DNA from: Desulfoscipio gibsoniae DSM 7213
GTDB lineage: Bacteria; Bacillota; Desulfotomaculia; Desulfotomaculales; Desulfallaceae
Assembly (NCBI RefSeq): GCF_000233715.2
Contig: NC_021184.1
Span: 4,212,001 to 4,276,000 of the forward strand
Length of the DNA: 64,000 nt
Direction: 5' to 3'
Shown: positions 44,061 through 53,558 of the stretch, piece by piece
Numbering within the stretch: the first letter of the stretch is position 1
How the letters are laid out: the number at the start of each line of letters is the position of its first letter
Notes under the pieces: generated by a model
What the model saw: the letters and a program-made list of their open reading frames with translations, nothing else
Told to the model about the DNA's origin: nothing
Databases searched by the model: none
Translations under genes and position numbers: made by a program

Positions 44061-44360
44061 CTAAAATATTGTGTCGCCGCTTTTTCCATTTAAACCCGGG
44101 TGCACATCGAAGCGTACCGCGCCTACAGCTACATCCCCGCCCGCAACCCGGACGGCTCTGGCTACTCCCTCGTGACCGAAGCCCCCGCACAGTTCAATGG
44201 CTTTGACCCCTTCGGCAACCAACTTTTTGATGACCTCTTCGGCTGCTTGGTAGTCTTTTACACCTACCACTTTCAATTCCACCTCCGGAGTTTGCACCTC
44301 GGACTTATGTTGGGTGGGTTCGGCACCGGGTGCTAAAAAAATAAACGCAGCTTTAAGCAT
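44061..44360 (-). CDS. DUF6506-family small protein
   Basis: 99 residues beginning MLKAAFIFLAPGAEP. The later part, VVGVKDYQAAEEVIKKLVAE and GVKAIELCGGFGHEGVARAV, matches the DUF6506 family of small alpha/beta proteins found in many anaerobes. GGFGHEG is its best-kept motif. Function unknown. A GGAGG site lies 8 nt before the ATG. It is a single gene. Confidence 0.8.
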   Translation of the reverse strand: MLKAAFIFLAPGAEPTQHKSEVQTPEVELKVVGVKDYQAAEEVIKKLVAEGVKAIELCGGFGHEGVARAVRVAGGDVAVGAVRFDVHPGLNGKSGDTIF

Positions 44361-44847: not shown

Positions 44848-46953
44848 ATGGTGGTAAGTTCTACACGGCTGAATAAAAAGAAAAAACTAGAAAAATATTG
44901 GGAAGGCTTTATTACCTCTGACAAATTTGATTTAAGCCAGCTAAACAGTACCATAGCTTCATCCTGGCAAAGATGTAAAGAGGCGGAGGTAAACCCCCTG
45001 GGCGGTAAGTGTGATCGCATATTCGGGCGGGACCGGCTGGAACAGCTGTGGGAGGCCAATAGAATACTTTTGGAAGTGGCTGCGCCTGTAATTGAGTCGG
45101 TATATTACACTGTTCAGGGGTCTGACTTCATGGTGGTGCTGGTAAATAACGAGGGTATTATACTTAAAACAATGGGTGATTATCAAACCCTTAGCAGCGC
45201 GGAGCGGTTAAATTTTAGACAGGGGGCCGTTTGGACGGAAGATTCGGTGGGTACCAATGCCATAGGCACCTCATTGACATCCGGTATTCCCATCCAGATC
45301 ACCGGCCCTGAGCATTTTTGCTCCCATCACCATGTCTGGACTTGCTCGGCAGCACCCATACGCGATCCGGAGGGGCATGTGCTGGGCTGCTTGGATATGT
45401 CGGGACCCTATGATAAAATGCACCCGCATACGCTGGGCATGATTGTAGCGGCGGCTCAAGCCATTGAATACCAGCTGCGCAGAGAATTGTCCAAAAGTGA
45501 ATTGGAATTGGCGCTTAAAAAGTTGACAACAGCGGTAGATACGGTTAACGACGGAATAATCTATATTAATAAAGATGGAATAATTACCGATGCCAATATT
45601 CCCGCCTGCAACTTGCTGGGCCTGTCGCATGGTAAATTAAAGGGGATGCGGTTCAATCATGTACTGGGCGGCGATATCGCTTCCGGCTGCCTAACGGCTG
45701 GAGCTTCAGCAAATGGGGAGGATTTTATTATCTCCGCTCCTCCGGGCAGGTTGGTTTGCTCTATCAAGACCATTACCCATAATAACGGCACAATAGGCGG
45801 CGCTGTGGCTGTTATCCGTATCCAAAAGAATGGCGCTAAAGGGCCAGTAAGCTATTGCACCGGCGGGAAGATGAAAGTTGCCGGTGGCCCAAGGACTGAT
45901 ACCGGTTCCGGCAACGGCCTTGTTCGGTCTTCCGGTGGGGTATCTGCCGGCACCACCAGCCGGCAAGCCAATCCTTTCAATGGTATTATAGGCTGCAGCC
46001 GGCCTATTTGCGCTGCGATTAATCTGGCCCGGCGGGCGGCGGCCTGTTCCTCCACCGTGCTGCTGCTGGGGGAAAGCGGCAGTGGCAAGGAAGTATTTGC
46101 CACGTCCATTCATATGGCAAGTGACCGCCGCCAGGGCCCCTTTATTCCGGTTAACTGTGCATCGCTGCCCAGCGGGTTGATCCAAAGCGAGCTATTCGGC
46201 TATAGCGGAGGATCGTTTACAGGCGCCAAGCGAGACGGTCAACAGGGCAAATTTGAGCTGGCTAACGGCGGTACACTGTTTTTAGATGAAATCGGCGATA
46301 TGCCGTTGGACATGCAGGCCAATTTACTGCGTGTACTTCAGGAAAAAGCGGTGATGCGGGTTGGTGGCAGCAAAATGATTCCTGTGGATGTACGGGTGAT
46401 AGCCGCCACCAATAAGGATTTGTTTCAGGAGATGCAACAGGGCCGCTTTCGGGAAGATCTTTTTTACCGGATTAATGTGCTTTGTATTGAAATACCTCCC
46501 TTGCGGGACAGGGGCGCAGGCGACCTGCAGCTGCTCACTCAACATTTGCTGGTTTCCATTGCCGCCAGGCTGGGAAGGCCGGTATGCAAAATTGACTCCG
46601 CAGCAATGGAGATGCTGGCGGAGTACCACTGGCCGGGTAATGTGCGAGAACTGGCCAATGTGCTGGAGCAGATGCTGATTATCACCGATGACGATGTTAC
46701 CCGGGTGGAACATTTACCGCGTTACCTGCAAAAGTCGGCCCGGGATTCGAAAGGATTGGCCGGGCAGGTTTCCTGTGCACCGGAGGAATCAAGAAGCAGT
46801 AATCCGGTAAGTACACTGGAACAAATAGAGAAACAAGCTATTCGAGAGGCGCTGCAGTGTTTTGGCGGCAATATCAGCCGAACGGCACAGGCGCTGGGTA
46901 TAGGCCGGAACACACTGTATGGAAAACTAAAAAAGTATGATCTTAATGATTGA
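44848..46953 (+). CDS. acoR: AcoR-like sigma-54-dependent activator
   Basis: 701 residues. A GAF-type sensor lies at about 60-215 ([18 protein letters not shown] is the AcoR-family signature), then a PAS domain (230-330), and an AAA+ sigma-54 interaction domain (about 375-610) with Walker [11 protein letters not shown], the sigma-54 contact loop GSFTGA (Ala-to-Ser form of GAFTGA) and Walker [11 protein letters not shown] Fis-type HTH ends the protein ([19 protein letters not shown]). It activates acetoin or related catabolic operons at -24/-12 promoters. Such a promoter lies 280 bp downstream, before the E1 gene. The effector is inferred. Confidence 0.92.
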
Positions 46954-47232: not shown

Positions 47233-47248
47233 TGGCATTGTCCTTGCT
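47233..47248 (+). promoter_or_regulatory. Sigma-54 (-24/-12) promoter
   Basis: TGGCATTGTCCTTGCT fits the consensus TGGCAC-N5-TTGCW, with GG and GC exactly 12 bases apart. It lies 60 bp before the E1-alpha start. The only visible activator is the adjacent AcoR-like protein. Confidence 0.88.
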
Positions 47249-47307: not shown

Positions 47308-48270
47308 ATGGCATTAACTAAAGAAGAAATGATGGAGATGTACCAAAGGATGCTGTTGATCCGGGAGTTTGAAGACTCAGTGGCCAATGTTTTTTCTCAG
47401 GGGCAGATCCCGGGTTTCGTACACCTGTACGTGGGAGAAGAGGCAGTGGCGGTAGGGGTCTGCAGCAATCTCAGCGACCAGGACTACATTGCCAGTACCC
47501 ACCGTGGCCACGGGCACGGTATTGCCCGGGGAGCTTCAGTGGACAAAATGATGGCGGAAATCTTCGGTAAAATTGACGGTTACTGCAAAGGTAAAGGTGG
47601 TTCTATGCACATTGCCGATGTGGAACTGGGCTTTTTGGGTGCCAACGGTATCGTTGGAGCCGGTCTGCCATTGGCGGCGGGAGCGGCCTTTGCCAACAAA
47701 TATTTAAACAATAATGGGGTGGCGGTTTGTTTCTTTGGTGACGCCGCTTCCAACAGGGCGACCTTTCATGAAGCGCTGAACCTGTCCAGCATCTGGAAGC
47801 TGCCGGTGGTATTTGTCTGTGAAAATAACATGTACGGCATTTCCATGTCCCAGGAGCGGCACCAAAATATCACCGATGTGGCGGACCGGGCCACAGCTTA
47901 CGGTATTCCCGGCCTTACTGTGGATGGTAACGACTTGATGGCAGTTTACGAGGCTTCGTCGGAAGCGGTTAAACGGGCGCGGGCAGGAGAAGGCCCCACC
48001 CTCATTGAGTGCAAAACTTACCGACACCGGGGTCACTTTGAAGGCGATGCCTGTGTGTACAGAAGTGAAGATGAACTTAACCAATGGAAAAAGAAATGCC
48101 CCATTAAGCGGTTCGCTGCCAGGCTTTTGGAAATGGGCTTGGCCGGTCAGGATGAGCTGGACAAGATCAACGAGCAGGTAAAAGAACAAATCAAAAGTGC
48201 CCTGGAATTCGCCCGGCAAAGTCCTTTGCCCGATATAACAGAGCTGACCAAGGATGTTTATTGTGATTAA
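47308..48270 (+). CDS. acoA: Acetoin/2-oxoacid dehydrogenase E1 alpha subunit
   Basis: 320-residue thiamine-diphosphate enzyme half. The ThDP motif is FFGDAASNRATFHEALNL... FVCENN; GDAASN stands in for the more usual GDGASN and RA for QG. GHGIARGASVDKMMAEIFGK and GKGGSMHIAD are conserved E1-alpha segments. With E1-beta it decarboxylates the substrate (or cleaves acetoin) and passes the acyl/acetyl group to the lipoyl arm of E2. TAGGAGGG precedes the ATG. The AcoX-like gene and AcoR-like regulator favour acetoin over pyruvate. Confidence 0.9.
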   Translation: MALTKEEMMEMYQRMLLIREFEDSVANVFSQGQIPGFVHLYVGEEAVAVGVCSNLSDQDYIASTHRGHGHGIARGASVDKMMAEIFGKIDGYCKGKGGSMHIADVELGFLGANGIVGAGLPLAAGAAFANKYLNNNGVAVCFFGDAASNRATFHEALNLSSIWKLPVVFVCENNMYGISMSQERHQNITDVADRATAYGIPGLTVDGNDLMAVYEASSEAVKRARAGEGPTLIECKTYRHRGHFEGDACVYRSEDELNQWKKKCPIKRFAARLLEMGLAGQDELDKINEQVKEQIKSALEFARQSPLPDITELTKDVYCD

Positions 48271-48308
48271 AAAATTAATTAGCAATTTATCTTGAAGGGG
48301 TGATTGAT

Positions 48309-49280
48309 ATGTTGGAAATGACTTATTCACAAGCCATCAACGCAGCTCTCAGGGAAGAAATGAGACGGGACGGCACAGTGTATATTCTGGGTGAAGACGT
48401 GGGCGTTTTTGGCGGCTGTTTTGGTGTAACTGTTGGATTAATTGATGAGTTCGGTGCCCAGCGGGTAATGGATACGCCCATATCAGAAACCGCTATTATG
48501 GGCAGCGCCGTAGGCGCGGCCGCGGCCGGACTGAGGCCTGTGCCTGAAATTATGTTTGTCGATTTTATGGCCGTATGTTTGGATGAATTTTTTAACCAGG
48601 CCGCTAAAATGAGGTATATGTTCGGCGGCAAAGCCAGGGTGCCCGTAACCCTGCGTACTGTGTGCGGGGCCGGAGTGGGGGCCGCGGCCCAGCACTCCCA
48701 GAGCCTGGAGGCCTGGTTTACCCATATGCCCGGGGTGAAAGTGGTGATGCCATCCACGCCGGCTGATGCCAAAGGTTTACTGGCGGCCTCAATTCGGGAC
48801 GACAACCCGGTAATTTTTATCGAGCATAAAGTGCTTTACGGTTTGTCCGGTCCGGTTCCGGAAGGGGAATACACCATACCCCTGGGCAAAGCCGACATCA
48901 AGCGTCCGGGTGGGGACGTTACCGTGGTGGCCACCTCCATGATGCTGCATAAAGCGCTGGCTGCGGCTCAAACTCTGGCCGGTGAAGGGATAGAAGCGGA
49001 GGTTATCGACCCTCGCACACTGTCACCTTTGGACAAGGATACCATACTGGAATCCGTAGCTAAAACCGGCCGTTTGGTAGTTGTGCATGAAGCAGTAAAA
49101 ACCGGCGGGTTTGGCGGGGAAATAGCCGCCATAGTGGCAGAGGAAGGATTTGATTACCTGGATGCGCCTATTAAGCGGGTGGGCGCCCCCTTTACTCCCG
49201 TGCCTTTCAGCCCGCCCCTGGAAGCGGCCTACATTCCCGATGAAAATAAGATCATTGCTGCTGTCAAAGAGCTGTTATAA
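48309..49280 (+). CDS. acoB: Acetoin/2-oxoacid dehydrogenase E1 beta subunit
   Basis: 323 residues. ILGEDVGVFGG near residue 27 and the transketolase Pyr-domain segment MDTPISETAIMGSAVGAAA hold the glutamate that activates ThDP. The C-terminal transketolase domain has VTVVATSMMLHKAL and EVIDPRTLSPLD. The ATG at 48309 is placed 8 nt after GAAGGGG; a GTG three codons earlier would overlap that site. Confidence 0.92.
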   Translation: MLEMTYSQAINAALREEMRRDGTVYILGEDVGVFGGCFGVTVGLIDEFGAQRVMDTPISETAIMGSAVGAAAAGLRPVPEIMFVDFMAVCLDEFFNQAAKMRYMFGGKARVPVTLRTVCGAGVGAAAQHSQSLEAWFTHMPGVKVVMPSTPADAKGLLAASIRDDNPVIFIEHKVLYGLSGPVPEGEYTIPLGKADIKRPGGDVTVVATSMMLHKALAAAQTLAGEGIEAEVIDPRTLSPLDKDTILESVAKTGRLVVVHEAVKTGGFGGEIAAIVAEEGFDYLDAPIKRVGAPFTPVPFSPPLEAAYIPDENKIIAAVKELL

Positions 49281-49307: not shown

Positions 49308-50330
49308 GTGTCATCTGTGGGCATAATAGCCAACCCGGCCTCCGGTAAGGATATCCGCAGGCTGGTGGCCTACGCCACGGTATTTGATAATAATGAAAAA
49401 GTAAATTTGATCAGAAGAGTGCTGCTGGGTTTGCATGCGGTGGGAGTACAGAGGGTTCATTTTATGCCCGATTACTTTGGCTTTTGCCACCGGGTCATGG
49501 ACGGCCTGGCCGGGCAGCACCGGCCCGCGCTGGAAATCAGCTTGCTGGATATGCCTGTAGAAGCCAGCCAGTTGGATTCCCGGCGGGCAGCTGCCCTGAT
49601 GACCGGCGCCGGGGTACGGTGTATCATCACGTTGGGCGGGGATGGAACCAACCGGGTGGTGGCCCGGGGTGCCGGCGAAGTGCCGCTGCTGCCCATTTCC
49701 ACCGGCACCAACAATGTATTTCCCGTCTTGGTGGAGGGAACTATTGCCGGTTTGGCAGCGGGGCTTCTGGTTACCGGGGCGGTCCGGCCGGAACAAGCGC
49801 TGGTGCGAACCAAAAAATTAGTGATTTATATTAATGGCCGGCCGGTGGATAGCGCACTTATTGATGCCGTGGTGCTGTCGGACCGGTTTATCGGCTCCCG
49901 AGCGGTTTGGGAAGTAGATAAAATCAAGCAAATAGTGGTTACCAGGGGAGCTACCACCAATATCGGCATTGCTTCCGTGGCCGGCGGCATCCGGCATATC
50001 GGCATGAAGGAACCATTGGGCATGCACATAGTGGTAGGCGGTGATAACACGCCGCTGCAGGTTAAGGCTGCTATCGGGCCCGGCCTGATCAGGAGAGTGC
50101 CGGTGGCCCGGCATGAACTGCTGAGTCCCGGACAAAGGGTTACGGTGCTGGAAAATCCATGTGTAATAGCGTTGGACGGGGAGCGGGAAATTCAAGTTAA
50201 CCGGGGTGACCGGGCCGAAGTGGAACTTTCCCCGGCCGGACCTCTGGTAGTGGATATAAACCGCACCATGTCCACGGCTGCCGCCGGGGGAGCGTTTAAG
50301 ATTAATACTATTGACGGAGTGAGTGATTAA
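49308..50330 (+). CDS. acoX: AcoX-like NAD kinase-family protein
   Basis: 340 residues. The ATP-NAD kinase fold is seen in GIIANPASGKDIRRLV (4-19), the GGDGTNR motif in IITLGGDGTNRVVA (about 104-117), and ISTGTNNVFP. AcoX proteins accompany acetoin dehydrogenase genes (acoXABC in Cupriavidus), and their reaction is still undefined. The GTG start lies after GAGAGGAAG; the out-of-frame ATG just before it is not used. One base separates its stop from the ATG of the E2 gene. Confidence 0.85.
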   Translation: MSSVGIIANPASGKDIRRLVAYATVFDNNEKVNLIRRVLLGLHAVGVQRVHFMPDYFGFCHRVMDGLAGQHRPALEISLLDMPVEASQLDSRRAAALMTGAGVRCIITLGGDGTNRVVARGAGEVPLLPISTGTNNVFPVLVEGTIAGLAAGLLVTGAVRPEQALVRTKKLVIYINGRPVDSALIDAVVLSDRFIGSRAVWEVDKIKQIVVTRGATTNIGIASVAGGIRHIGMKEPLGMHIVVGGDNTPLQVKAAIGPGLIRRVPVARHELLSPGQRVTVLENPCVIALDGEREIQVNRGDRAEVELSPAGPLVVDINRTMSTAAAGGAFKINTIDGVSD

Positions 50331-50331
50331 C

Positions 50332-51927
50332 ATGGCAAAAATTGTTTTAATGCCCAAATTGGGATTAACTATGCAAAAGGGTAGAATAACAAGCTGGCTA
50401 AAAAATGAAGGAGAGCAAGTAGAGCAGGGCGAACCATTGCTGGAAGTAATGACTGAAAAAGTCAACATTAAAGTGGAAGCTCCCTTTAGTGGAACGTTGT
50501 ATAAAATTATCGGCGAAAAGGGCAAGACACTGCCCATATCGGTGCCAATTGCAGTGCTGGCCGAGGAAGGCGATACGGCAGGCGATTTGGAAACAACCGT
50601 GGCCCAGGCTCAGGAGGACTTGCGGCAGGCCCTGTCCGCACAGGATCAGGCAACAGATACTAAAAAAGCTGAGTCCAAGCCCGTCAAGCCCTTCGTGGTG
50701 CTCAGCGGCAACCGTAAAGTATCACCCCGGGCGGCCAAGTTGGCCCGCGAGGCCGGTGTGGACGTCAACTTGATCAGCGGCTCGGGATCAGGCGGCCGGT
50801 TGGTGGAAGAGGATGTCCGTGCTTACCTGGAACAGGTACAGGGAGGCGATAAAACACAGCTGATGCCTATTGACGGCATGCGGGCGGTTATCGCCGAAAG
50901 AATGTCCGCCAGCAGAAAACAGGCGGCTCTTGTTACAATCATGGAAGAAATAGACGTTACGCCCCTGGGGGACGTGCGCAGCCAGCTCAACGGGCTGGAT
51001 AAAGCAGGCAAATTAAAGTTCTCATACACTGACTTGATAGTTAAGTTTGTGGCCCAGGCGCTTACGGAATATCCCATGGTTAATACCCGCAGTTCGGATA
51101 ATGAAATCGAGATGTCGGAACATATTAACGTCGGGGTAGCCGTAGCCCTGGAAAACGGCCTGGTGGTACCCAACATTAAAAACGCCCACCGGCTGTCTCT
51201 GGAGCAAATTTCAGCCAAAATTAAAGACCTGGCAGCCCGTGCCCGCAACAATGAACTGGAGCCCCGGGAGGTGGAGGGCGGCACCTTTACCGTAAGTAAC
51301 CTGGGAATGTTCGGTGCGGAAGGATTTACACCCATCATCAACCGGCCGGAAACAGCTATTCTGGGGGTGGGCGCCATGCGCGCCAAACCGGTGCTCAAAG
51401 GCGGACGGCTGGAGAAGTGCAACTTAATGACTTTAAGCCTTTCTTTTGACCATAGAATTATTGATGGTTCTTTGGCAGCGGAGTTCTTAAGCAGACTGCG
51501 CGAAATGCTGGAAAGTCCGCATCCCTGGTTCGAACTGGAGCCCCGGAGCAGCGGAGACAATGTGCTGGCCGGTGGCGGCAGCACCCCGGTGCAGATTCGC
51601 AAAGCTTACCAGGATGGCATTAGTAAGTTGATGGAAACAGCACCCGATGCGGTGCTGGGTTTTTCCGCCCTGACAGAAGGTGTTATGTTTGATGACGGTG
51701 AGATTTCCCGGTTAAATAAAGAACTTATACTGGTGGCCCTGGCAGTATATATTAAATGTGAATATTGCATCGCTGCGCATGTCTACAACGCGCTGGAACA
51801 AGGGGCCAGCCCCGAACAGATTCTGGAGGCGGCCAATGTATCCGTATTTTTCGGAGGTGGCGCGGCGCTGGCTCATAGTGCCGTTATGGTACAGGATTGC
51901 CTGGAGGCTTTTGCCAACAATAGTTGA
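50332..51927 (+). CDS. acoC: E2 acyltransferase fused to an AhpD-like domain
   Basis: 531 residues. The lipoyl domain (1-75) has the lipoylated K43 in VMTEKVN. A peripheral subunit-binding domain (about 122-165, KVSPRAAKLAREAGV) and the acyltransferase domain (about 180-405) with DHRIIDG follow. The C-terminus from about 425 is not E2: it reads ISRLNKELILVALAVYIK, then CEYCIAAHVY, the AhpD/carboxymuconolactone-decarboxylase pattern with C476, C479, H483 and an upstream Glu. AhpD is a thiol peroxidase reduced through lipoyl-E2 in mycobacteria, so the fusion may link the lipoyl arm to peroxide or disulphide reduction. Confidence 0.9.
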   Translation: MAKIVLMPKLGLTMQKGRITSWLKNEGEQVEQGEPLLEVMTEKVNIKVEAPFSGTLYKIIGEKGKTLPISVPIAVLAEEGDTAGDLETTVAQAQEDLRQALSAQDQATDTKKAESKPVKPFVVLSGNRKVSPRAAKLAREAGVDVNLISGSGSGGRLVEEDVRAYLEQVQGGDKTQLMPIDGMRAVIAERMSASRKQAALVTIMEEIDVTPLGDVRSQLNGLDKAGKLKFSYTDLIVKFVAQALTEYPMVNTRSSDNEIEMSEHINVGVAVALENGLVVPNIKNAHRLSLEQISAKIKDLAARARNNELEPREVEGGTFTVSNLGMFGAEGFTPIINRPETAILGVGAMRAKPVLKGGRLEKCNLMTLSLSFDHRIIDGSLAAEFLSRLREMLESPHPWFELEPRSSGDNVLAGGGSTPVQIRKAYQDGISKLMETAPDAVLGFSALTEGVMFDDGEISRLNKELILVALAVYIKCEYCIAAHVYNALEQGASPEQILEAANVSVFFGGGAALAHSAVMVQDCLEAFANNS

Positions 51928-51947
51928 TCGGGGGATGTGTTAAGCAA

Positions 51948-53558
51948 TTGAAAGGAACGGAGGAGAAGCTTACAATTCGTCGGGTCCTTGTATTGGACCT
52001 GGCTACGGAAGACTATTTTCGCACTTTGGAACTGCAGCGGGAGCTGCAAAAGCAGCGTATGGAAGGAGCCATACCGGATTGTTTGCTGGTGCTGGAGCAC
52101 CCGCCCACTTTCACCCTGGGACGGGCCGGGGGCGCTGACAATATACTGGTAAATGAGGACCGGCTGGCCCGTGAGGGTATCGGCGTATACAACGTTGAGC
52201 GGGGCGGCGATGTTACTTACCACGGGCCGGGCCAACTGGTAGGTTACCCCATACTGGACCTGAAAAATTATGGACGTGATGTGCACAGGCTGGTGGAACG
52301 CCTGGAGGAAGTGCTGATTCGCACCCTGGCCGCCTTTGGTATTACTGCCGGCCGCCGAACCGGGTTGCCCGGAGTGTGGGTAGATAAGGCTAAAATAGCC
52401 AGCATCGGACTGGCCATAACCAGGTGGGTGACTATGCACGGCTTTGCCCTTAATGTACAACCGGATATGCGCCATTTTGGGATGATTAATCCTTGCGGAT
52501 TACAGGGGGTGACGATGACCTCCATGTCCGGTTTATTGGGACGCCAGGTCAGTCTGGAGGAGGTAAAAAGCCGGGTGGTGGAGGAAATGGCCGGAGAGTT
52601 CGGCTGGGAACTGCTGCAGAGCGATTACCGGGTTGATGCGCTGCTGCAGAGGCTGGGCCTGGTGGCCCGAAACTTCCGGCCGGGCTGGCTCACGGTGGCG
52701 ACGCCGGGACCGGGGGTGCTGGAGGGTATGACCGGTCTTTTTGAACGTTGCGGGCTGCACACTGTATGCGAGGGGGCTTGCTGCCCCAATGCGGCCGAAT
52801 GCTTTGCCCTGGGCACCGCCACTTTCATGATCCTGGGGGACACCTGCACCCGTAATTGCCGGTTTTGCTCGGTAAGCAAGGGAACACCCGGGACGCCGGA
52901 CCCCGGGGAACCCCTGGCGGTGGCTGAAGCAGTGCGGGAATTGGGTTTGCGTCATGCAGTTATTACCTCCGTTACCAGGGATGACCTATCCGATGGTGGA
53001 GCGTGCCACTTTGCGAATATGATTCGCGCAGTACACCGCCTGAATCCCCATACTACAGTGGAAGTGCTGGTGCCTGATTTTAAAGGCTCGGAAGAAGCTC
53101 TGGCCGAAGTGCTGGCGGCCCGGCCCGAAGTGCTGGGCCACAACCTGGAGACCGTGCCCCGGCTTTATAAGCAAGTACGTCCGGGTGCCGATTACCGACG
53201 TTCGCTTGAACTGTTGGCCCGGGCTCGGGAAATTGCCCCGGGGGTGGTCACCAAGAGCGGGCTAATGTTGGGATTGGGCGAGGAGTTCGGTGAAGTGTTG
53301 GCTGTTTTGGACGACCTGCGGGAGGTCGGATGCGCTTACATAACCATCGGTCAGTACCTGCAACCGTCAACGGACCAACTACCGGTGCATGGATTTATAC
53401 CACCGGGAATATTTGCTCATTACCGTGAGGAGTGCCTGCGTCGCGGATTCAAACGAGCCGAGTGCGGCCCCCTGGTGCGCAGTTCTTACCACGCCGCCTC
53501 CCCTGATGCGCCGGAAGTAGACCTCCATGCCGCCGGCGCGGCATTATCGGCAGGATGA
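51948..53558 (+). CDS. LipB-LipA fusion: octanoyltransferase plus lipoyl synthase
   Basis: A single frame of about 536 residues. The first ~230 are LipB: VLEHPPTFTLGR, RGGDVTYHGPGQLVGYPI, GLPGVWV, the catalytic lysine in KIASIGLAI and cysteine in MINPCGLQG. The rest is LipA: the auxiliary cluster cysteines in CEGACCPNAAECF, radical-SAM CTRNCRFCSV, and C-terminal RSSYHA. Together they transfer octanoate from ACP to E2 and insert two sulphur atoms. No stop or frameshift separates the halves. The start is uncertain (TTG at 51948; TTG at 51924 overlaps the E2 stop). The E2 gene directly upstream is the obvious client. Confidence 0.92.
   Translation: MKGTEEKLTIRRVLVLDLATEDYFRTLELQRELQKQRMEGAIPDCLLVLEHPPTFTLGRAGGADNILVNEDRLAREGIGVYNVERGGDVTYHGPGQLVGYPILDLKNYGRDVHRLVERLEEVLIRTLAAFGITAGRRTGLPGVWVDKAKIASIGLAITRWVTMHGFALNVQPDMRHFGMINPCGLQGVTMTSMSGLLGRQVSLEEVKSRVVEEMAGEFGWELLQSDYRVDALLQRLGLVARNFRPGWLTVATPGPGVLEGMTGLFERCGLHTVCEGACCPNAAECFALGTATFMILGDTCTRNCRFCSVSKGTPGTPDPGEPLAVAEAVRELGLRHAVITSVTRDDLSDGGACHFANMIRAVHRLNPHTTVEVLVPDFKGSEEALAEVLAARPEVLGHNLETVPRLYKQVRPGADYRRSLELLARAREIAPGVVTKSGLMLGLGEEFGEVLAVLDDLREVGCAYITIGQYLQPSTDQLPVHGFIPPGIFAHYREECLRRGFKRAECGPLVRSSYHAASPDAPEVDLHAAGAALSAG

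Follow-up and report, generated by a model that had tools for sequence, protein, structure and literature searches.

A lipoyl-E2 with a C-terminal CMD/AhpD-like domain in an acetoin dehydrogenase-type operon without E3

Lipoyl-dependent dehydrogenase complexes are conventionally described as E1, E2, and E3, and E3 passes the electrons of the lipoyl arm to NAD+. The aco operon of Desulfoscipio gibsoniae DSM 7213 examined here encodes an E2 that continues into a CMD/AhpD-like domain, and no E3 was found within the operon. This raises the question of how its dihydrolipoyl arm would be reoxidized. The operon lies in a window of 64,000 nucleotides (the whole stretch analyzed, to which all unprefixed coordinates refer), itself within one contig of 4,855,529 bases, the complete genome. 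An initial annotation had read the protein as an E2 with a peroxidase-like extension, whose lipoyl arm might serve both acyl transfer and the reduction of peroxide or disulfide.

The frame at 50332-51927 on the forward strand (acoC::CMD) encodes an E2 acyltransferase of 531 amino acids with no internal stop in translation; the mechanical ORF start is a GTG 9 bases upstream, at 50323, a small correction. Pfam places Biotin_lipoyl, E3_binding, 2-oxoacid_dh, and CMD domains in this order, every one above its cut-off. In the lipoyl domain (residues 5-76; 50344-50559, +), the motif TEKVN contains K43, a lysine invariant in 8/8 sequences and probably lipoylated. It is followed by the E3-binding (peripheral subunit-binding) domain (residues 129-163; 50716-50820, +) and by the acyltransferase core (residues 175-398; 50854-51525, +), whose H374 and D378 are likewise invariant in 8/8. 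Lipoyl, E3-binding, and catalytic domains and the DHR..DG motif place the protein in the E2 acyltransferase family, and AcoC and the E2s of acetoin and 2-oxo acid dehydrogenases have the same domains and core. Among the NCBIfam matches listed, no E2 equivalog model reached its cut-off with the fused E2, and the AcoC model NF011457 (372 positions), which we take to represent the alpha/beta-hydrolase type, covers just residues 2-114. Unlike hydrolase-type AcoC, the window's E2 ends in CMD, a distinction that the initial annotation had drawn correctly.

A variable linker of low identity among homologues (residues 403-420; 51538-51591, +) leads to the CMD/AhpD domain (residues 438-516; 51643-51879, +), recognized by Pfam CMD (PF02627) with E 1.9e-16 and 60.2 bits (cut-off 23). 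The NCBIfam domain model ahpD_dom (TIGR00778) matches residues 457-503 with 42.1 bits against a cut-off of 27.8. The nearest NCBIfam CMD families both remain under their cut-offs; these are the arsenosugar-associated peroxidase-like TIGR04169 (52.1 vs 120 bits) and the peroxidase-related TIGR01926 (30.9 vs 81.8 bits).

The motif C476-E-Y-C479-x3-H483 and the upstream glutamate, here E464, were found by alignment at the places claimed for them, with Y478 between the cysteines. A profile of 22 CMDs aligned its positions 38-102 with residues 106-170 of Mycobacterium tuberculosis AhpD (1gu9) at E 4.9e-5. Over this stretch of equal length, a simple offset sets E464, C476, C479, and H483 on AhpD residues 118, 130, 133, and 137, which are presumably its catalytic residues, and the AhpD layout E-x11-C-x2-C-x3-H is present in the CMD domain. 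Unlike AhpD, the fused domain has no histidine between the two cysteines: the place of AhpD His132 (known from the title of 1me5, 'H132Q mutant') is taken by Tyr478, and tyrosine stands there in 15/15 readable aco-linked CMDs.

Modeled alone, the domain adopts the all-helical CMD fold with six helices (pLDDT 79.7), and the expected AhpD-like fold thus stood up to structure prediction; the full-length model of the fusion, built from 9 sequences, had a mean pLDDT of 43.6, too low to interpret. The top Foldseek matches were structures of the CMD/AhpD family, one of them below E 0.001 (5dik, E 1.4e-4). A second aligner gave Z 14.3 against 1vke (94 aligned residues, rmsd 5.5 Å), 14.1 against 1p8c, 11.1 against 5dik, and 4.8 against 1gu9, where unrelated helical chains scored up to 10.5. 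Its nearest relatives of known structure carry the annotation peroxidase-like or unknown. Fold and E/C/C/H spacing are what the fused domain has in common with M. tuberculosis AhpD and the CMD/AhpD family; AhpD is a chain of 177 amino acids, and the fused domain is one CMD unit of ~110, joined to E2. By profile, modeled fold, and tetrad, the domain is a member of the CMD family, and its identity as an AhpD is putative.

To follow the spread of the fusion, we searched 100 genomes of relatives (own included), 113 genomes of the class, and 398 of the phylum. Full-length fusions were present in 8 of the 100, and the class search returned the fused frame in the same 8/113 genomes, with no other E2 at E 1e-70. 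Three further full-length fusions from the phylum bring the number to 11 (G224, G140, and G181 were taken to be the MAG loci L028-L030 and counted once). Since the fused frame recurs in 11 genomes, it is not an assembly error, and the covalent union of an AhpD-type domain with a lipoyl-E2 is upheld. A contig scan gave 11 loci, 8 of them fused and 3 distant (L031-L033), the latter left unused. No viral contig matched the CMD alignment. CMD matches occurred in 174 plasmid records, the best from Acetoanaerobium, and 0/22 E2 matches in plasmid records at E 1e-60 spanned 80% of the fusion.

The E/C/C/H tetrad is intact in 11/11 fused proteins and in 4/4 readable split partners, in which the CMD is encoded by a gene of its own; the cysteines have thus been retained in homologues (a fifth split partner, in G208, is partly masked and stands outside this count). 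Of the 7 free CMDs aligned with these proteins, 3 lack the glutamate and two of these also the histidine (L016, L021, L022). In the 7 class homologues, identity to the window's protein is 68-95% in the CMD, 56-94% in the core, and 28-89% in the linker. The four most distant show 68-76%, 56-81%, and 28-39%, respectively, and the most distant of all 68%, 56%, and 28%; in three of the others, the core is better conserved than the CMD. With CMD identity near that of the core and linker identity far lower, the CMD seems to be constrained about as strongly as the core. E2::CMD is a real and conserved lipoyl-E2 variant that, within the reach of our searches, is undescribed; we found no paper whose title describes this architecture in a search that left most subscription journals outside.

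The gene order of the window's operon (acoR, E1 alpha, E1 beta, acoX, E2) is that of an acetoin dehydrogenase. An acoR-like sigma-54 activator of 701 amino acids (44848-46953, +), with GAF, AAA, and Fis-type HTH domains in Pfam and no NCBIfam equivalog above cut-off among 25 matches listed, precedes acoA (E1 alpha; 47308-48270, +; Pfam; TIGR03182, 401.3 vs 393.85 bits) and acoB (E1 beta; 48300-49280, +; Pfam; PRK09212, 392.9 vs 321 bits). The next gene encodes 340 amino acids with an NAD kinase-like domain (49308-50330, +; Pfam NAD_kinase, 8.8e-11), and we presume it to be acoX from its position. After acoC::CMD comes a LipB::LipA fusion of octanoyltransferase and lipoyl synthase (544 amino acids; 51924-53558, +; Pfam and NCBIfam), whose mechanical start overlaps the acoC end. 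By gene order, the E2 is of the acetoin type, with acetoin or a 2-oxo acid as putative substrate. The acoR-A-B-X order is common to acetoin operons; unlike known AcoC operons, the window's operon has an E2 with an extra C-terminal CMD and no E3 gene after it. All eight class operons share the order A-B-X-C::CMD. Each has an acoR-like gene close by and encodes LipB plus LipA, the last two fused in 7/8 and separate, upstream of E2, in G056.

Two minor features accompany the operon. A pattern search located a sigma-54-like -24/-12 element, TGGCATTGTCCTTGCT (47233-47248, +), ~60 bases upstream of acoA; the element fits an acoR-type activator and is weak alone, because 9 sites in the window score equally (7 on + and 2 on -). 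Divergent from acoR lies a gene for a 99-amino-acid DUF6506 protein (44061-44360, -; Pfam), homologues of which recur beside aco operons, both CMD-bearing ones and one with E3 (L124).

To compare how aco loci across the phylum end, we centered a survey on acoX, so as not to select by CMD or E3. acoX was present in 33/398 genomes, and in 27/33 the stretches examined included an aco E2; G266, G458, G304, G397, G418, and G256, with no aco E2 on the stretch, were left out. After the aco E2 (n=27), E3 followed in 10 and CMD, fused or as the next gene, in 11 (6 fused and 5 with CMD as the next gene), with neither in 6 and both in 0, the last figure referring to the stretches fetched, whose downstream view differs between loci. 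Eight of the E3-type loci were seen on the stretch, and 2 (G166, G123), whose stretches stop at E2, were assigned from coordinates. G311 has two E2 genes, with E3 after the second. Of the 6 loci with neither, G146 stops at a contig end, and in G208 the main acoX match and the E2-CMD lie on different contigs. The chance of no overlap between CMD and E3 would be 9.5e-4 if rows were independent, which they are not. In a tree of E2 proteins (G432 left out for its broken E2; rows of G166 and G123 incomplete; long branches flagged for G182, G146, G294, G311, and others), fused E2s formed one clade (100/100) and split E2s another (99/96), joined at 88/85, with E3-type E2s scattered. Given this topology, the exclusion between CMD and E3 may be one event, not eleven, and the pattern may go back to one exchange of E3 for CMD and one fusion, retained ever since.

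We then asked for E3 in whole genomes. In the window's genome, no match to the lipoamide dehydrogenase model TIGR01350 reached the cut-off (101/101 candidates scored; best 148.6 vs 408.8 bits), and in a draft genome of ~80 contigs, G010, none did either among 59/72 candidates scored (best 144.9 bits). By eye, the five best E3-profile ORFs of the window's genome had no redox motif GGTCxNxGC and resembled CoA-disulfide reductases or other flavoproteins. A DNA pattern for the E3 redox motif gave 0 sites in both genomes and 1-2 sites, at the E3 genes, in each of 8 other genomes searched. By these searches, the window's complex appears to have neither a dedicated nor a shared E3.

Other lipoyl proteins were also not found. 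The window's genome gave 3 GCV_H matches and G010 gave 4 weak ones; all 3 of the former and the 2 viewed of the latter were biotin carriers of 70-91 amino acids with EAMKM. A genuine GcvH was detected in neither genome, and the biotin-carrier motif led us to reject small GcvH-like carriers as electron takers in D. gibsoniae. Each genome gave one E2 match. With one E2 and no GcvH, the fused E2 is the sole lipoyl protein found in the window's genome and G010, and we found no further client for the adjacent LipB::LipA. The idea that fusion genomes always lack E3 was rejected as well: E3 is encoded elsewhere in 14/16 CMD-type genomes (9/11 fusion and 5/5 split), in G012, G025, and G171 within a glycine-cleavage-like cluster (GcvH by profile, GcvT/GcvP by eye). 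Such an E3 could serve the complex in trans. The E3-binding domain retained in the fused E2 also counts against replacement of E3, although E3-binding domains can also bind E1.

The longer CMD-type operons provide additional insight into a potential electron acceptor. Eight of the 16 CMD-type operons (3 other fused and 5 split) also contain GcvH-like lipoyl proteins, together with lipoate ligases except on the stretch of G286, where none was seen. Seven of these 8 encode an FAD-binding GlcD-like protein and a CCG iron-sulfur protein, in place of which G478 has HdrC-, HdrB-, and HdrA2-like genes. The GcvH/FAD/CCG set occurred in 0/8 E3-type loci seen downstream. Nor was it observed next to the aco operon of the 8 class genomes, the window's among them (the contig of G047 stops right after LipA); GcvH-like carriers and CCG/Hdr proteins are absent from the 64-kb window. 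According to PMC6067878, CCG is the signature of the non-cubane cluster in Hdr-type sites that handle disulfides. The closest parallel is the sHdr-LbpA system of sulfur oxidation described there, which pairs a lipoate-binding protein with an Hdr-like complex, with GcvH-like carriers beside CCG/Hdr-type proteins and E3 proposed to reoxidize the carrier. In contrast, the carriers of the longer operons lie within aco operons without E3, and the window's operon is not of the sHdr-LbpA type. The gene set of the longer operons resembles a route for electrons out of dihydrolipoyl into iron-sulfur and flavin chemistry.

In two side observations from such operons, HdrA2-like (930 amino acids), HdrB-, HdrC-, and GcvH-like genes follow a free CMD in the aco operon of L191:2000-6546 (-), and a lipoate ligase is joined to a DUF116-like tail in CMD-type aco operons of L105:4796-7306 (-), L106, L107, and L191, the tail being Pfam-checked for L107 and assigned by similarity for the others. 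The L105 protein is also joined to LipA.

Starting from the domain make-up, its conservation, the operon position in E3's place, and two genomes in which neither E3 nor GcvH was detected, we infer electron flow, its direction, the acceptor, and the substrate as follows. E1 (AcoA/B) would cleave the substrate and acetylate the lipoyl arm, and the E2 core would move the acetyl group to CoA, leaving dihydrolipoyl, as in the respective families. Bypassing E3, the arm would then reduce the C476-C479 disulfide in the fused CMD with its two electrons, and the resulting CMD dithiol would pass these on to another acceptor of the thiol/disulfide or iron-sulfur kind. For the related operons, this acceptor is probably the GcvH-like lipoyl carriers, followed by FAD/CCG iron-sulfur proteins or an HdrABC-like complex; in D. 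gibsoniae, an acceptor is postulated. If electrons leave in this way, the CMD would replace E3, and the complex would be uncoupled from NAD+. The fused domain and the lipoyl arm are very probably dithiol/disulfide partners; that the CMD stands in for E3 as electron exit in this operon type has slightly better than even odds. The full reading is tentative, with a probability of roughly 0.42: an E3-free lipoyl dehydrogenase complex in which dihydrolipoyl electrons would pass through an AhpD-like dithiol domain to thiol/heterodisulfide-type iron-sulfur chemistry, past NAD+, allowing a sulfate reducer to cleave acetoin (or a 2-oxo acid) by means of a single lipoyl protein and without lipoamide dehydrogenase.

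Free CMDs beside lipoyl genes are independent links between the two and count in favor of this reading. In Desulfotruncus arcticus (L248:4604-9431, +), a free CMD (38% identity to the fused domain) precedes genes for a lipoyl protein of 98 amino acids and a lipoate ligase, with an interrupted frame for E3 between them. In Acetoanaerobium noterae (L256:6983-10076, +), a free CMD (39% identical) is followed by a lipoyl::E3 fusion of 577 amino acids and a lipoate ligase, and G027 has, on one contig, a partial CMD match together with a fragment of E3 and a lipoyl protein of 77 amino acids. The free CMDs L249 and L251-L255 had no lipoyl neighbor among the query genes used, and this CMD subgroup therefore accompanies lipoyl proteins sometimes, not always. 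The cassettes L248 and L256 share with the fusion a related CMD beside a lipoyl domain, and they contain lipoate ligase; they differ in their free-standing CMD, the lack of an E1/E2 core, and the presence of E3, fused to lipoyl in L256 and with its frame interrupted in L248. Because E3 is present, the cassettes would allow either electron direction; a CMD next to E3 suits the AhpD direction and speaks against E3 replacement. As a separate observation, a free CMD of genome G027 (L252:6383-10564, -) lies near genes that by eye are Hdr-type-like, one of them weakly similar to a CCG protein.

The AhpD direction would make the fusion a peroxide defense, with the lipoyl arm reducing the CMD and the CMD a peroxiredoxin or hydroperoxides, on electrons from E3/NADH or from substrate via E1. 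AhpD itself is coupled to lipoyl-E2, as stated in PMC12028322, and the shared fold and active-site layout, like the CMD-lipoyl-E3-LplA cassettes, are consistent with such a role. Unlike the AhpD system, however, the 8 region proteins given to Pfam include neither AhpC nor any other peroxiredoxin, profile and motif searches found no E3 in the genome, and the CMD occupies E3's operon place rather than standing beside E3. The host, Desulfotomaculum gibsoniae Groll, is moreover listed as an obligate anaerobe in PMC4148979, in whose searched main text the terms acetoin, pyruvate dehydrogenase, glycine, lipo-, heterodisulfide, catalase, and peroxid- are absent. We consider peroxide defense unlikely. 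For the double role that the initial annotation had given the lipoyl arm, the partnership of lipoyl and CMD is supported by gene order beyond the window's operon, whereas peroxide reduction driven by E3 and NADH is unsupported, since no E3 was found, no peroxiredoxin is among the 8 region proteins given to Pfam, and the host is listed as an obligate anaerobe. The E3 partner of the proposed peroxidase assay with E3 and NADH seems to be missing from the host, as judged from its genome. The fused domain may well work like AhpD coupled to lipoyl-E2, in a direction that may be the reverse of AhpD's.

Alternatively, an unrelated flavoprotein, thioredoxin-reductase-like or of the CoA-disulfide-reductase/rhodanese type, might act as E3 in trans, with the CMD a mere adaptor or protective accessory. 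Thioredoxin-reductase-type dihydrolipoamide dehydrogenases occur in amino-acid-fermenting anaerobes, and our literature search for them found no paper. By eye, the genome's two best E3-profile matches resemble CoA-disulfide reductases with a rhodanese tail, and a Pyr_redox/rhodanese protein adjoins the CMD-lipoyl-E3 genes in Desulfotruncus arcticus (L248). This explanation leaves the CMD in E3's operon place and the GcvH/CCG genes unaccounted for, and we regard it as quite unlikely. A structural role, in which a CMD oligomer assembles or anchors the E2 core and the cysteines are leftovers, would suit a C-terminal domain behind a variable linker and the oligomeric nature of CMD proteins, and is highly improbable given a tetrad invariant in 15/15 readable aco-linked CMDs and decayed in 3/7 free ones, and a CMD that is a separate gene in 5 genomes.

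The missing E3 is more interesting than the peroxidase idea. If electrons do leave through the CMD, there would be a second route to reoxidize dihydrolipoyl, with an AhpD-like domain in E3's place, and the link between AhpD and lipoyl-E2 would be recast as a general dithiol relay, not a mycobacterial antioxidant specialty. The genome also encodes a second, remote CMD protein near base 504451 (L003:1402-1698, +), which by eye adjoins a carbon monoxide dehydrogenase-like gene.
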